Virus record (IMG/VR): IMGVR_UViG_3300031951_000862
Span: 1 to 29,977 of that record
DNA: 29,977 bases
Origin: a virus
Strand: one strand, 5' to 3'
A model generated the notes under the pieces. That model searched no databases. It was not told where the DNA came from and was given only the letters and a program-made list of their open reading frames with translations. Below are positions 6,837 through 15,902 of the stretch, piece by piece (position 1 is the first letter of the stretch; each line of letters begins with the position of its first letter). The position numbers and the translations under genes are program-made.

Positions 6837-7277
6837 ATGATGACTGCCACTGTTCCTCAAGACGTCACCTATACACCTAGTGGTGTTAAAGTAGATATCC
6901 TCAGTACTCATGATGACGGTGAGTACTTTATGGTAAAGTCTAAAACCACGGGTAAAGTCTTTTTTGCGCATAAAAATCAAATCGAACAAAAGGAAGGAGA
7001 TACAGATTCAGAACAGGGCGCAAAACCCGTTAAGTCGCGACGGGGTCGTCAGATTGTTAAGCCCCAAGTGCCTGCGCCAAGTCGTTTCAACTTGAATGCA
7101 ATGACACCTGAGCTCTTGACTCAAGTGTTACCCGGCGTGGGCCTTAAGACCGCTAACGAGATCATTGAGCTCCGGATGTCGCTGCCTGGTGAACGTTTTA
7201 CAAAATTGGAGCAGCTTCGACAGATCAAACATGTAAATTGGGATGAGATTCTGAACGACTCTATTTACGTTGAATAA
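6837..7277 (+). CDS. Helix-hairpin-helix (ComEA-like) DNA-binding protein
   Basis: A 146-residue protein. The C-terminal third (residues about 85-142) has FNLNAMTPELLTQVLPGVGLKTANEIIELR followed by FTKLEQLRQIKHVNWDEI. This matches the ComEA/PsbU-type HhH pattern: an 'N.N.A....L..LPGIG...A..I...R' core and a 'F..ldeL..v' second half. Such domains bind DNA backbone non-specifically, or mediate protein contacts in photosystem PsbU. The N-terminal part (residues 1-50) looks like a small beta domain, joined by a charged linker with KSRRGRQ. Start ATG 6837 is followed immediately by ATG 6840, so either may be used. It converges with the HNH-AP2 gene, overlapping by 17 nt. Confidence 0.72.
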   Translation: MMTATVPQDVTYTPSGVKVDILSTHDDGEYFMVKSKTTGKVFFAHKNQIEQKEGDTDSEQGAKPVKSRRGRQIVKPQVPAPSRFNLNAMTPELLTQVLPGVGLKTANEIIELRMSLPGERFTKLEQLRQIKHVNWDEILNDSIYVE

Positions 7278-7752
7278 CGTTTAAATAAGCGTATTCTCCG
7301 AAATATTTAACGGCCGCTTTGTTATACGCCAAAGCGGCATCTTCTTCTTTGTCGTATCCTCCTAAACTTATACATTTATAGTTTATTTTTATGTGCGCGT
7401 AGTAACGTCCGTCTCTTTTATCTCTAGTCACTCCTTTAAATTTTTTATCTTTTCTCGGTCTTTGATTTGCTGTTTGCTGCGAACGTGTTGCTTTTCTGAG
7501 TGTACCTGTGTTCTCATATTCATGATCTGCGTGATCAATTTCACTTTCTCCAGGATCTTCTCCTGTTTTTAATGCGTAATAAACTCTATGATTTAAATAT
7601 GCTGTATTTTTTAAAGAAAATTCGTAATAGGTTAAGTTCTTTCTTTCTGTTTTATTTCCGACAGGATCTCCGATTTTTACTCTGTTTGAAGGTCTTTTTC
7701 GCCACCGCAATTTACCTGGAAGTAATTCGTCTATCTCAACCCACTCCTCCAT
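7261..7752 (-). CDS. HNH homing-endonuclease-like protein with AP2 DNA-binding domain
   Basis: A 163-residue protein combining an HNH_3-type nuclease core with an AP2/ERF-like domain, an arrangement typical of free-standing homing endonucleases in phages. Counting from ATG 7752, the nuclease core has H55 in LNHRVYYAL, then IDH (D73-H74), LRKATRSQQTANQR and N96. The AP2 domain (about 105-158) has FKGVTRDKRDGRYYAHI and AALAYNKAAVKYFGEYAYLN. The frame stays open to an ATG at 7836, but that would overlap the next plus-strand gene; the WVEI start is the usual N-terminus of this family. It is AT-rich compared with its neighbours and lies in opposite orientation between two plus-strand genes, both signs of insertion. 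Confidence 0.82.
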   Translation of the reverse strand: MEEWVEIDELLPGKLRWRKRPSNRVKIGDPVGNKTERKNLTYYEFSLKNTAYLNHRVYYALKTGEDPGESEIDHADHEYENTGTLRKATRSQQTANQRPRKDKKFKGVTRDKRDGRYYAHIKINYKCISLGGYDKEEDAALAYNKAAVKYFGEYAYLNVIQRK

Positions 7753-7815
7753 TAGTTTGATATCGATAACTTTGTGTTTCACGTAGACTGAGACAGTAGA
7801 CCGGCAGTTTAGCAA

Positions 7816-8436
7816 GTGGCGCAGTTTACCCAACAAGAGCTAGAACAGCTGCAGAGTTATCTTTCGCAGCAGGGCGTCGTCTTTCAGCCGGACACAACAG
7901 ACGCGACTAAAAGAGAAGTAGTATACGCTGCAGTAAACCAGCTAACTAGAAATCCTGCCGCTGTATTTGGTTACAGGTTAGATGATTTTAACTTCAGTAG
8001 AGTATGCTATCACTTGGGTTACGCGATAGCTACTGTACCTGCTGGTGATTACGCCAGGTTATTAGAGGCTTGTAATAGTATATCTAGTGAATTTTACTAC
8101 GATAAAATTATCCAGCAGATTGAGCGCTGTGAGGAAGCTGAGCGTTTAACAGAACTTGCAGCTGGTCGCGCCACGAACCGCCAAGAAACAATCCTTGGTG
8201 ATGTTAACCGTTCAATCAACATTCAAGATAAAACTGAAGTAGCCAAAGTTTGGCGACAGAACTACCTGTACGAGACGGGTCGTTTGGCAGAAATGCTTTA
8301 CGTCGCCAACTACAAAGACCCTGTGGCATCTCGTTACAGATTTGAACGTAGTGGCGCAGAATTTATCCAGGCTATTCCTGGCCCACCTGATGTATCTCGT
8401 GCTGATCGTCTGTATTTCTACGCAGATTGGCGCTAA
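7816..8436 (+). CDS. Probable head-tail connector or virion protein, GTG start
   Basis: A 206-residue, mostly helical protein (QQELEQLQSYLSQQG at the start, DYARLLEACNSISSEFYYDKIIQQIERCEEAERL in the middle, KVWRQNYLYETGRLAEMLYVANY later). No transmembrane segment. The GTG at 7816 follows TAGACT (7784-7789) by 32 nt. Its position after the capsid genes and its helical composition fit a connector or adaptor, but I recognise no family and the role is inference from position only. Confidence 0.62.
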   Translation: MAQFTQQELEQLQSYLSQQGVVFQPDTTDATKREVVYAAVNQLTRNPAAVFGYRLDDFNFSRVCYHLGYAIATVPAGDYARLLEACNSISSEFYYDKIIQQIERCEEAERLTELAAGRATNRQETILGDVNRSINIQDKTEVAKVWRQNYLYETGRLAEMLYVANYKDPVASRYRFERSGAEFIQAIPGPPDVSRADRLYFYADWR

Positions 8437-12872: not shown

Positions 12873-13432
12873 TGACATCTACACCTGTTAATCTTCTCAG
12901 CCTTCGGTCGAATATCAATTCCGATCGTCCCAAGCCAGCTACTTTACAACTCGGTCAGGTAGCTGTTAATTACGGCGCCGGAGAACCTGCTATTTATGTA
13001 GAGGACAGCGCTGGCGCAATTCGTAAGGTCGGTTCTAATCATTACGGTTCCACGGCGCCTAACTCGACGCCTGCCGGAGAAATTGGAAACTCTGTCGGTG
13101 AGACTTGGGTCGACAGTAGCGCAGTCACCTACTATTTAAAAGTCTGGACCGGATCGACGTGGCAAACTATCGGCGCCGCTTTCGCTGATATTGCTACGAC
13201 AGCCAATACCGCAAACACGGCTACTTTTGCCTCTTCTGCTGGTTCTGCTGTTATTGCGTCCGGAAGTCTTAGTTCGCAAACTTCGGTTATGTCATCTGGA
13301 ACGATTGTTTCGTCTGGTGTTTCTGTAACGACAGCACTACCGGTCAGTTCACCTGAAGGTACTGTTATGTATCAAGCTGCAGCAACTTCTGGTTTATATA
13401 TCCACGTCGGCGGTCAATGGGTTCAGGTTTAA
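12872..13432 (+). CDS. Tail-fibre-like protein with 'WY/VWTG-W' repeats
   Basis: A 186-residue Ser/Thr/Ala-rich protein. The opening (LLSLRSNINSDRPKPATLQLGQVAVNYGAGEPAIYVEDSAGAIRKVG) matches a phage structural opening of the 'rp..a.Lq.GElavN...p.ly...d.G.i..v' type. It is followed by GETWVDSSAVTYYLKVWTGSTWQTIG and, at the C-terminus, EGTVMYQAAATSGLYIHVGGQWVQV, two copies of a beta repeat also found in the 263-residue fibre protein at 20570. The middle is low-complexity Ala/Thr/Ser. It starts in a TAATG overlap with the upstream gene, so it is translationally coupled. Its TAA shares TTAA with the stop of the converging Dps gene. Confidence 0.75.
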   Translation: MTSTPVNLLSLRSNINSDRPKPATLQLGQVAVNYGAGEPAIYVEDSAGAIRKVGSNHYGSTAPNSTPAGEIGNSVGETWVDSSAVTYYLKVWTGSTWQTIGAAFADIATTANTANTATFASSAGSAVIASGSLSSQTSVMSSGTIVSSGVSVTTALPVSSPEGTVMYQAAATSGLYIHVGGQWVQV

Positions 13433-13968
13433 CCCCGCAGTGTGCTTTTGAGGAACCACGCTGCTTTAAAAGATTCGTCGACTAGCTGAGCTGCATAGTT
13501 TTCCACATCTGGAGCTTTGATCATACGAGCCAGTTCGCCAAGATCTTTGGCTTGCATACCAAAGTCTTCCAAGTTTTTAAGGTAGGTAATTAACATATCG
13601 CGAGTTTCATAAGATTTGCAGTTCTTAAAACCTTTATAGGAATTAAGCAACCCTTTCTGACACATGGGCATCAAGGTGTCCATGGTGCGGACAAACTCGG
13701 CTAGTTTGTCGAACTGTCCAACGTGCAGTTCGTACTGGCCTTTTAAAAATTCATGAATAGGTAGGAACAGAGGTCCTTCGACGTTTAGATGAACTAAGTG
13801 AGATTGCGCGTACAGTTGATGCGCGTAAGACGACAGAGCCACCAGATTCAAGAGAAGGTCCTGAAGCTGGGGCTCTGGTTCCACCGAGATAACTCGCTCT
13901 TCTATTTGCGTGGGCATCAAAGCTGACGCAGGAGTCGAAGCGAAAGTCTCGGTGTACGTCATGTTCAA
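13429..13968 (-). CDS. dps: Dps-family ferritin-like protein (phage-encoded)
   Basis: Dps proteins form 12-subunit shells that oxidise and store iron using peroxide and often protect DNA. This 179-residue protein has the family size and the complete ferroxidase signature: H60 in HLNVEG, H72 in IHEF, then D87 and E91 in FDKLAEFV. The spacings (12, 15 and 4 residues) are identical to those of E. coli H51, H63, D78 and E82. The position of E. coli D67 is Lys here. The flanking helices are also present (LLLNLVALSSYAHQLYAQSH before, ETRDMLITYLKNLEDFGMQAKDLGELARM after), so it is full length. The N-terminal tail of about 35 residues is acidic rather than Lys-rich, so direct DNA binding is uncertain. 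It overlaps the upstream HTH gene by ATGA (13965-13968), implying coupling. The start could also be M3. Confidence 0.88.
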   Translation of the reverse strand: MNMTYTETFASTPASALMPTQIEERVISVEPEPQLQDLLLNLVALSSYAHQLYAQSHLVHLNVEGPLFLPIHEFLKGQYELHVGQFDKLAEFVRTMDTLMPMCQKGLLNSYKGFKNCKSYETRDMLITYLKNLEDFGMQAKDLGELARMIKAPDVENYAAQLVDESFKAAWFLKSTLRG

Positions 13969-14234
13969 AAAGCCGCTGCTACTGCGGTTTCCGTTGCGTC
14001 GTCTTCCACTTTAGCCGACGAATCAGCACCGTTCAGATAGCTCTGGAGAGCATCTTTGTTGATGCGATAAAGAGACTTAGCGCCGGAAGGCTGCAGGTTT
14101 ACATAAATGTCCTTGGGCCAGCCGCCGGGGTTATTGGATTCGGTCAGTGCGATGCGCTTGCGCACGAAGCCGCTGGAACAGTTGAGGAACTCTGCAGTCT
14201 CAGCAATCGTCAGGAGAGTCTTACCTTCAAACAT
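13965..14234 (-). CDS. Excisionase/MerR-type HTH protein upstream of dps
   Basis: An 89-residue protein. Residues 5-60 read LLTIAETAEFLNCSSGFVRKRIAL, then a wing with SGAKSLYRINKDALQSYLNG. This is the HTH_17/excisionase pattern (helix-turn-helix, 'R..'-type recognition helix, then 'yri...dl..yl'). Such small proteins act as transcription factors or as recombination directionality factors. The last 20 residues are acidic and Ala-rich. Its stop overlaps the dps start by four bases, so the two form an operon. It may regulate this island; no integrase is visible in the window. Confidence 0.78.
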   Translation of the reverse strand: MFEGKTLLTIAETAEFLNCSSGFVRKRIALTESNNPGGWPKDIYVNLQPSGAKSLYRINKDALQSYLNGADSSAKVEDDATETAVAAAF

Positions 14235-14319
14235 CTGCCGTGTGAATGAGGATGGCTCAGTAATGATAACGAGGTTCTTGCGCTTTGTAAAGGTCGGGAG
14301 CCGGCCTTAACCCTGATTT

Positions 14320-14325
14320 TATAAT
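14320..14325 (+). promoter_or_regulatory. Consensus -10 TATAAT before the NblA-like gene
   Basis: A perfect TATAAT in the 129-nt divergent gap. It is 29 nt before TTG 14349 and 44 nt before ATG 14364. No good -35 is visible at the usual distance. It is the likely promoter of the NblA-like gene. Confidence 0.6.
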
Positions 14326-14363
14326 GATTACAGAAAGCACTTAATCTCTTGAGACGTACGCTA

Positions 14364-14660
14364 ATGATTCGGTGTAGGATAGGCAGAGAGTGGGTTCCGC
14401 CCGTGGCTACCGCAAACTTCGATGGAGGAATGCAAAATCTTCATTGCGGACTGACGCTGGAAGATGAATTTGTGCTAACCAGGATCCGAGCCAAAGCTAA
14501 ATCTTTAAATAATCGAAGTGATCGAGATCAGTTTTTTTGGGTCATGATTTTAAAGTTAGTATGTAAGGAAAGAGCGTATAAAACAGTTATGAATCAAATA
14601 GGAGTCACTGTAGAAACTAATGTACAGATGTTCGATGATTCTGAAGATTCGGTAGAATGA
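14364..14660 (+). CDS. nblA: NblA-like phycobilisome degradation adaptor
   Basis: NblA is a small helical protein that binds phycobiliproteins and the Clp protease, triggering antenna breakdown; phage copies are known in some freshwater and marine cyanophages. Counting from ATG 14364 (98 residues), residues 30-80 match the NblA plan: LTLEDEFVL (30-38), corresponding to 'LSLEQEFNL', then AKSLN (45-49) for 'v..mS', QFFWVMIL (56-63) for 'dFLvELY', and KERAYKTVMNQ (68-78) for 'mREatYqeLLKH'. E69 and Y72 fall at the conserved positions. It has a 29-residue N-terminal extension and a short acidic tail, unusual for a family of about 60 residues. Other possible starts are TTG 14349, which suits the promoter spacing, and ATG 14430. 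Confidence 0.68.
   Translation: MIRCRIGREWVPPVATANFDGGMQNLHCGLTLEDEFVLTRIRAKAKSLNNRSDRDQFFWVMILKLVCKERAYKTVMNQIGVTVETNVQMFDDSEDSVE
14653..14658 (+). promoter_or_regulatory. -10-like hexamer TAGAAT, 26 nt before ATG 14679
   Basis: TAGAAT overlaps the end of the NblA-like gene, whose TGA is 14658-14660. It precedes the hydrolase gene at the common spacing. Confidence 0.45.
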
Positions 14661-14678
14661 TGAATAAATAGCAGACAG

Positions 14679-15902
14679 ATGGCGTTAGATAACCCGCTGA
14701 CCCGACAGTGGCTTGATCTGATCGCGTACGCCGAAGGTACGGATAGTGCTCGTCGCGGTGGCGGATATGATGTCATGTTTGGCGGAGGTCGCTTTCAAGA
14801 TTTTTCTAGACATCCCGATGTTGTTGTAAGCACTAAGGGTTTTCCGAAAGGTAGTGCTGCGGCGGGGCGTTATCAATTTATGCCCAATACTTATGCTGGA
14901 GCACAAAAAGCCCTAGGGCTACAGGGATTTGGTCCGCAAGAGCAAGATCTTGCAGCGATTTATTTGATGAAGCAACGTGGGGTCGACCCTACGAAAGATC
15001 CGATTACTCCGCAAACGATCGCTAAGCTTGCTCCTGAATGGGCTAGTTTGCCCACGCTGCAGGGTAAAAGTTTTTACGGTCAGCCCGTTAAATCTTTGGG
15101 TGAGTTGCAGGGTTTTTTGCAGAAACCTAGTGGCGGCGTTCCTTATCAGGTAAATCAAGCAGCCGGAGTTACTCCGGTAACTCTGCCTAGATATGATTTT
15201 CAAGGCGCTTTAAAAAATATTGTTACTCAATATGCTTTATCCGGAGCGGCACAACCAACAGGAGGAGATACTCAAAAAGCGCAAGTTTATCTACAAGCGG
15301 CGGAGGCTATAAAAGCAGACCCCGATAAATATGGAGAAGAAGGTAGAGCACTTGCCGAGCAGTATCAGTACAAAGCAAATGAAGTTATGTTTTTAGGAGG
15401 TGCTCCAGGAGGCAATGATCCTTCTAAGTTAATCATGGATATTTTAGGCGCCAAGATGAGTCAAAAAGCTTACGATGAGAGTCAAGCGGCTCAAGAAAGT
15501 TTAATTAATTCTCAGCTGGCTTCGGCTGGTCCTTCGGCTACTTCCGCAGTGGACCCAAATGCTCAGTTCATTAGCACGGTTGAACTAGGTAAAGCATTGC
15601 AGCGCAAGTACGGTCCTGGTGGATTGCGCATCGGCGAAAACCCAGCGTTTGGCCGCGTGGGCAAGCACAGCCCTGGTTCTCTTCATTATCAAGGTCGTGC
15701 TTTAGATATTACCGATTGGGGCGAGGGAGATTGGAAGAATAGAACCGTTCAGCTCGGCGAACAACTGAGGCAAGCTCTGCCTGGTGCTCAGATTTTCCAC
15801 CCTGGATACGATCCTGTCGGCGGTCATCATGAACATATTCATTTAGGTTTACCGGAAGGCAAAATTCCAGTAACTCCGGAACTCTTAAAGCTGATCGGTT
15901 AA
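14679..15902 (+). CDS. Bifunctional peptidoglycan hydrolase: lambda-R-like transglycosylase plus LAS-type peptidase
   Basis: A 407-residue protein with two murein-degrading domains. Residues about 5-150 resemble lambda endolysin R (GH104 lytic transglycosylase): LDLIAYAEGTD with catalytic E19 at the same position as in lambda R, then YDVMFGGGRFQDFSRHP, AAGRYQFMP and GFGPQEQDLAAIYLMKQRG. Residues about 295-405 carry a LAS-type (M15/DD-peptidase-like) metallopeptidase: H336 and D343 in LHYQGRALDI (HxxxxxxD) and H386-I-H388 in HHEHIHLGL as zinc ligands. A Gln/Ala-rich linker of about 140 residues joins them. No signal peptide or transmembrane segment is visible. No holin is seen beside it, and virion genes surround it, so it may be a virion-borne lysin rather than the endolysin. 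Confidence 0.85.
   Translation: MALDNPLTRQWLDLIAYAEGTDSARRGGGYDVMFGGGRFQDFSRHPDVVVSTKGFPKGSAAAGRYQFMPNTYAGAQKALGLQGFGPQEQDLAAIYLMKQRGVDPTKDPITPQTIAKLAPEWASLPTLQGKSFYGQPVKSLGELQGFLQKPSGGVPYQVNQAAGVTPVTLPRYDFQGALKNIVTQYALSGAAQPTGGDTQKAQVYLQAAEAIKADPDKYGEEGRALAEQYQYKANEVMFLGGAPGGNDPSKLIMDILGAKMSQKAYDESQAAQESLINSQLASAGPSATSAVDPNAQFISTVELGKALQRKYGPGGLRIGENPAFGRVGKHSPGSLHYQGRALDITDWGEGDWKNRTVQLGEQLRQALPGAQIFHPGYDPVGGHHEHIHLGLPEGKIPVTPELLKLIG

Follow-up and report, generated by a model that had tools for sequence, protein, structure and literature searches.

An NblA-like gene kept beside cell-wall hydrolase genes in cyanophages related to S-EIV1

Background

Does the small gene lying just ahead of a cell-wall hydrolase gene in a virus record encode a protein of the NblA type, and what would such a protein do in that place? 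To our knowledge, the phage NblA genes described so far have been host-like single copies in a scatter of cyanophages. The gene considered here lies in a stretch of 29,977 nucleotides (positions 1 to 29,977 of the IMG/VR virus record IMGVR_UViG_3300031951_000862), which we call the window. NblA is the protein by which the cyanobacterial cell itself sets off the breakdown of its light-harvesting antenna. It is described as an adaptor of ClpC through which phycobiliproteins reach the Clp protease (PMC7966870, PMC4103541); it acts as dimers in four-helix bundles (PMC7966870) and has a mean length of ~63 aa (PMC4103541). Cyanophage NblAs expressed in Synechocystis 6803 or S. elongatus are reported to cause phycobilin loss and bleaching (PMC9602691).

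Results

The gene and its start codon

The initial annotation described an open reading frame at 14349-14660, and this frame (plus strand, TTG start, 103 aa) is indeed present, with the peptides LTLEDEF, AKSLN, QFFWVMIL and KERAY in its translation. It belongs to a real gene, since relatives are encoded on 56 viral contigs. When the window is compared with the related locus L004, the substitutions in codons 15-85 are distributed 6/0/23 over codon positions 1/2/3, i.e. 23 of 29 are at third positions. The N-terminal extension that the annotation also reported appears to be an over-call of the start. The usual start in the family aligns with the GTG at 14403 of the window, as judged by a comparison of starts among the relatives, and the 54 nt 5' of this GTG are conserved among close relatives yet without coding-type change: the substitutions against L004 are 3/2/0 there, none of the five being at a third position. 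Moreover, the in-frame ATG at 14364 of the window reads ATT in the locus L007. We therefore consider GTG 14403 the most likely start, giving a product of 85 aa (14403..14660 on the plus strand, stop included), with ATG 14433 as a possible alternative. A longer form starting before 14403 was rejected on the non-coding substitution pattern, and the in-frame open stretch at 14349..14402 (plus strand) is probably untranslated. Besides the relatives, the start comparison and the third-position bias, the gene call draws on a score of 11.5 bits with an NblA profile.

An upstream motif, GAGCTAGACTTT, occurs in 13 loci. A promoter and terminator scan of 14000-15000 gave one site each, at chance level, and no Rfam match and no tRNA were found in the whole window.

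Distant homology to NblA at the family level

Members of the family occur in 70 distinct viral loci of the S-EIV1-like cyanophage lineage, always in the same position. Two later scans for relatives listed 80 loci each, largely the 56 contigs found first. These scans used conserved peptides as bait, including the LTLEDEF half of the protein, so the invariant residues of the family are partly inflated. Only distinct proteins were aligned, 36 members in one alignment and 46 (from 53 distinct proteins) in the other. Among bacterial genomes no relative was confirmed in any of 70 candidate stretches, and a tblastn search of the window protein against 50,697 phage records gave no match. Little can be read from the tblastn result: with Anabaena NblA as query, this search did not recover the genes for NblA in Ma-LMM01 and PaV-LD, both of which are in the collection.

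Taken alone, the window protein matches nothing in Pfam, PHROGs or NCBIfam, and an NblA profile search gives no significant match for it, the outcome that the initial annotation had named as refuting its reading; only the comparison at the family level recovers NblA. The NblA family PF04485 is the top Pfam family, being hit by 24 of 36 members (best E 0.0012, all below the cut-off) against 3 of 36 for each of the next-best families. The best member scores 18.4 bits where the gathering cut-off is 25 bits, and the window protein has no hit. A profile-profile alignment of the 46 members with a cyanobacterial NblA profile, built from 80 NblA sequences from cyanobacterial genomes, scores 27.8 over 50 columns with a one-residue gap, while the best of 300 column shuffles reaches 19.5. 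We also scored the members with an independent NblA profile, which includes the NblAs of Ma-LMM01 and PaV-LD but no member of the family. All 46 members exceed 5 bits (median 12.0, window protein 11.5), whereas among 2,300 shuffled decoys the highest score is 9.3 and seven decoys pass 5 bits. In a PDB profile search NblA (1ojh) ranks third behind two unrelated chains, in the right register but not significantly (E 0.91).

Common ancestry with NblA is thus detectable over the whole core, with scores above the shuffled controls along ~50 columns. From these sequence comparisons we conclude that the gene family is a distant homologue of NblA and not a standard member by Pfam cut-off or length, and we use the name NblA-like because both of these fail. 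The match to NblA that had been noted in the core stands at this distance, without extending to membership of PF04485 by the Pfam cut-off.

Predicted helices, conserved residues and tail

The AlphaFold2 model of the 85-aa protein has helices at residues 19-34 and 38-65, with pLDDT of ~91-93 over residues 21-50, i.e. a helical hairpin whose first helix is the shorter, as in NblA, which is what the initial annotation had expected of a structure prediction. A true NblA folded from its single sequence has helices at 5-19 and 23-51, so that the arrangement in the window protein is that of NblA shifted by 14, helix 1 being one residue longer. Foldseek and VIA-align searches with the window model listed no NblA chain; we draw no conclusion from this, because the true NblA model also failed to retrieve NblA.

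The NblA-like core covers residues 17-64 (14451..14594, plus strand), as delimited by hhalign (columns 14-63) and the AlphaFold2 model. In the profile-profile alignment LTLEDEF takes the place of L-S-L-E-Q-Q-F in NblA, the N-terminal motif linked to ClpC binding. The half with this motif is the best-kept half of the family, a figure inflated by its use as search bait. The second helix aligns with NblA at E56, Y59 and K60, and the second half also has invariants of its own (W46, R57, A58 and V62). We take L51 and K53 of Anabaena NblA to be the C-terminal residues linked to phycobilisome binding, K53 being needed for it; in our family the L51 position is an invariant V and the K53 position varies.

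Residues 65-85 form a conserved C-terminal tail, acidic at its end (14595..14657, plus strand), owing to which the protein is longer than the ~60-aa NblA. Across the family the tail extends 15-23 residues (median 19) beyond the core, and in each of the 46 aligned members its net charge is acidic, so the acidic tail seen in the initial annotation is real but not unusual.

A fixed neighbourhood with an exchangeable hydrolase

The synteny counts cover the 70 loci that differ from one another within a 150-nt part of the gene, using for each neighbour only the loci long enough to show it. On the minus strand ahead of the NblA-like gene are a Dps/ferritin-like gene (13429..13968; PF00210, E 1.4e-11) in 65/65 testable loci and a divergently oriented gene for a small helix-turn-helix protein (13965..14234; PF12728, E 6.5e-5, below the cut-off) in 66/66. 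After the NblA-like gene and the hydrolase slot come gene 16425 on the plus strand (59/59) and gene 16690 on the minus strand (58/58), in a fixed order.

The cell-wall hydrolase gene (14679..15902, plus strand) begins 18 nt 3' of the NblA-like gene. Its product is lambda-lysozyme-like at the N-terminus (PDB 1am7, E 2e-19; PHROG endolysin, E 4e-32), and the C-terminus has a weak hedgehog-like match and may be peptidase-like. Homologues stand at this position in 50 of 63 loci. In six loci examined in more detail the slot holds an SLT-type lysozyme-like protein (L053, L105), an SLT plus M23-like protein (L030, L028), an M23 protein (L035) or, in L048, a protein with no Pfam match. The hydrolase beside the NblA-like gene is thus of several unrelated kinds across phages, as if the slot had been refilled and the neighbour kept. 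Hence, the NblA-like gene is associated with wall hydrolases even where their type changes; these enzymes could be endolysins or virion-borne.

A conserved ORF of ~85 aa with the core FKGYNxPKRDVQxGKEFAVAAKEG lies between the helix-turn-helix and NblA-like genes in eight loci (L012, L015, L017, L028, L048, L055, L065 and L088) and is absent from the window and its closest relatives. In L012 and L088 a long open frame on the minus strand 5' of the NblA-like gene looks, by eye, like a GIY-YIG homing endonuclease. Elsewhere in the window, an AP2-domain protein with a weak HNH match (7261-7836, minus strand) overlaps its neighbours and is probably a homing endonuclease.

The counterpart in S-EIV1

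Of the phage records, S-EIV1 alone is matched by the portal (47%) and the major capsid protein (69%) of the window phage. Eleven of the 37 window genes match S-EIV1, ten of them in the same order and Dps elsewhere. These shared genes place the window phage among the relatives of Synechococcus phage S-EIV1. The phycobilisome-bearing host proposed initially gains indirect support by analogy, as this nearest cultured phage infects Synechococcus. The Dps/ferritin-like gene is common to the whole lineage, and in S-EIV1 it is located beside a sulfate adenylyltransferase gene.

With the profile of the NblA-like family no clear copy was detected in S-EIV1, but the Pfam NblA model picked out AHV82245.1 (33903-34223 of our locus L119, corresponding to 73902-74222 of S-EIV1), which is annotated as hypothetical and scores 16.3 bits with PF04485, below the cut-off. 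Like the window protein, it has an NblA-like core, a very acidic tail and an adjoining lysozyme gene, and it lies ~2 kb ahead of homologues of window genes 16690 and 17258, i.e. at the matching place. The difference is that the S-EIV1 lysozyme gene (L119 33217-33882) is just upstream and of family PF00959, whereas the window hydrolase is downstream and of another family. Neither psbA nor cpeT was found in any of 17 records of these phages, an absence that agrees with phages taking light harvesting apart instead of sustaining it.

A second NblA gene in the relatives

Searches of the relatives' contigs with PF04485 revealed a further, more typical NblA gene, above the Pfam cut-off in 3 of 20 records. 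A profile made from 12 of these second genes matches in 20 of 30 records (29 contigs and S-EIV1), including 12 of the 13 contigs of at least 70 kb; in S-EIV1 it found none. In all 20 the second gene shares the strand of the divergent gene and follows 21-34 kb further downstream, four contigs being read as circular. These four (G020, G009, G022 and G018, 79-87 kb) fit the distance seen in the others only in this way, which suggests that they are complete or circularly permuted genomes. The second gene was not found in nine of the 29 contigs, all of which end within 30.1 kb downstream of the divergent gene (five at no more than 17 kb, four at ~22.0, 25.3, 26.2 and 30.1 kb), and because they end so near, real absence is indistinguishable from truncation. 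In the window the expected place falls beyond the end.

In the locus L111 the second gene has among its neighbours, on the opposite strand, one gene with a weak SSB match and one with a weak DNA-methyltransferase match, so it seems to stand apart from the virion genes. The second NblA of G002, G006, G022 and others is in the same phage genomes and on the same strand as the divergent gene, but it has a different C-terminus and is closer to cyanobacterial NblA (profile-profile probability 97.2%, against 71.2% for the divergent family). Compared directly, the divergent family and the second phage NblA match weakly (probability 3.8-5.5%).

Discussion

The explanation we lean towards, by a small measure, is that the window gene encodes a phage ClpC adaptor of the NblA type that would be used late and aimed at the phycobilisomes. 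The homology, the predicted hairpin, the position and the second NblA gene were all computed here; from them we infer the late expression, the docking on ClpC, the antenna as target and the pairing with the second NblA. Late use is proposed because of the homology together with the position in the structural region. The gene would be transcribed together with the late genes, and the helix-1 motif LTLEDEF would dock on the host ClpC, as is thought for the matching motif of NblA. The second helix may contact phycobiliproteins, and ClpC-ClpP would then degrade the antenna late in infection, which could free amino acids for virion proteins and limit light damage ahead of lysis. The control of phycobilisome breakdown named in the initial annotation would be exerted in this manner. 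The protein might also pair with the second phage NblA, as reported for NblA1 and NblA2 in Synechocystis; PMC7966870 lists a paper on this heterodimer among its references. Against the adaptor reading are the lack of a Pfam hit for the protein alone, the scores of all family members below the NblA cut-off, its 85-aa length, the variable K53 position, the weak match to the second NblA and the PDB E-value of 0.91.

More tentatively, we speculate that S-EIV1-like phages run a programme with two adaptors, a typical NblA away from the virion genes and the divergent one in the late wall-hydrolase slot, the latter being either the obligate heterodimer partner of the former or an adaptor through which ClpC would receive a new substrate. 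If true, this would tie host proteolysis to lysis.

A less likely alternative is that the protein has kept the ClpC-binding half and delivers some other host or phage protein to ClpC-ClpP late, leaving the antenna to the second NblA. The well-kept LTLEDEF half (with the bait effect given above), the separate invariants of the second half with its conserved tail, and the more typical NblA already in the same genomes would agree with this, but nothing points to any particular other target and in the second helix the three residues given above still line up with NblA. It is rather improbable that the protein is unrelated to NblA, being a small helical virion or lysis-module protein of convergent similarity: the constant company of the wall hydrolase and virion genes, the sub-threshold Pfam scores and the non-significant PDB search would allow it, but the profile scores exceed the shuffled controls, the helix lengths match those of true NblA, and S-EIV1 has an NblA-like gene at the matching place. 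Least probable is an antagonist that forms pairs with the NblA of the host or the phage and inhibits it, so that the antenna would stay functional up to lysis; dimers with a divergent hairpin paralogue could be dead ends, given the known NblA dimers and the NblA1/NblA2 heterodimer (PMC7966870), but no positive evidence favours it and phages with psbA in 0/17 records are not apparently set to maintain photosynthesis.

Compared with the known systems, the favoured adaptor reading finds its closest model in cellular NblA (PF04485; 1ojh from Anabaena PCC 7120). Both proteins are two-helix hairpins (predicted in our case) of the same spacing, with L-S/T-L-E-x-x-F opening helix 1 and E, Y and K in helix 2; the window protein differs in falling below the Pfam cut-off, in its 85 aa with the conserved acidic tail and in the K53 position. 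Ma-LMM01 and PaV-LD likewise carry an NblA-type gene in a cyanophage, but their proteins score 51.8 and 46.8 bits with PF04485, unlike the window protein, and their genes adjoin nrdA and thymidine kinase genes, not a wall hydrolase. The nblA of Ma-LMM01 is reported to be expressed early (PMC4103541). NblA in uncultured marine cyanophages is attributed to Nadel 2019, as cited in PMC9602691. An ocean survey gives the S-EIV1 group as 3.3% of the cyanophage content, and its table, which has nblA for the PaV-LD, Ma-LMM01 and MIS-PhV1 groups, credits the S-EIV1 group with hli and ptoX alone (PMC5332604). In searches of open-licence papers we came across no phage described as having two NblA-type genes. 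In the present lineage an NblA-type gene belongs to the structural region as a constant part and is paired with a second NblA gene. As S-EIV1 is in culture and carries AHV82245.1, when and why such a phage dismantles the antenna of its host can be tested in culture.
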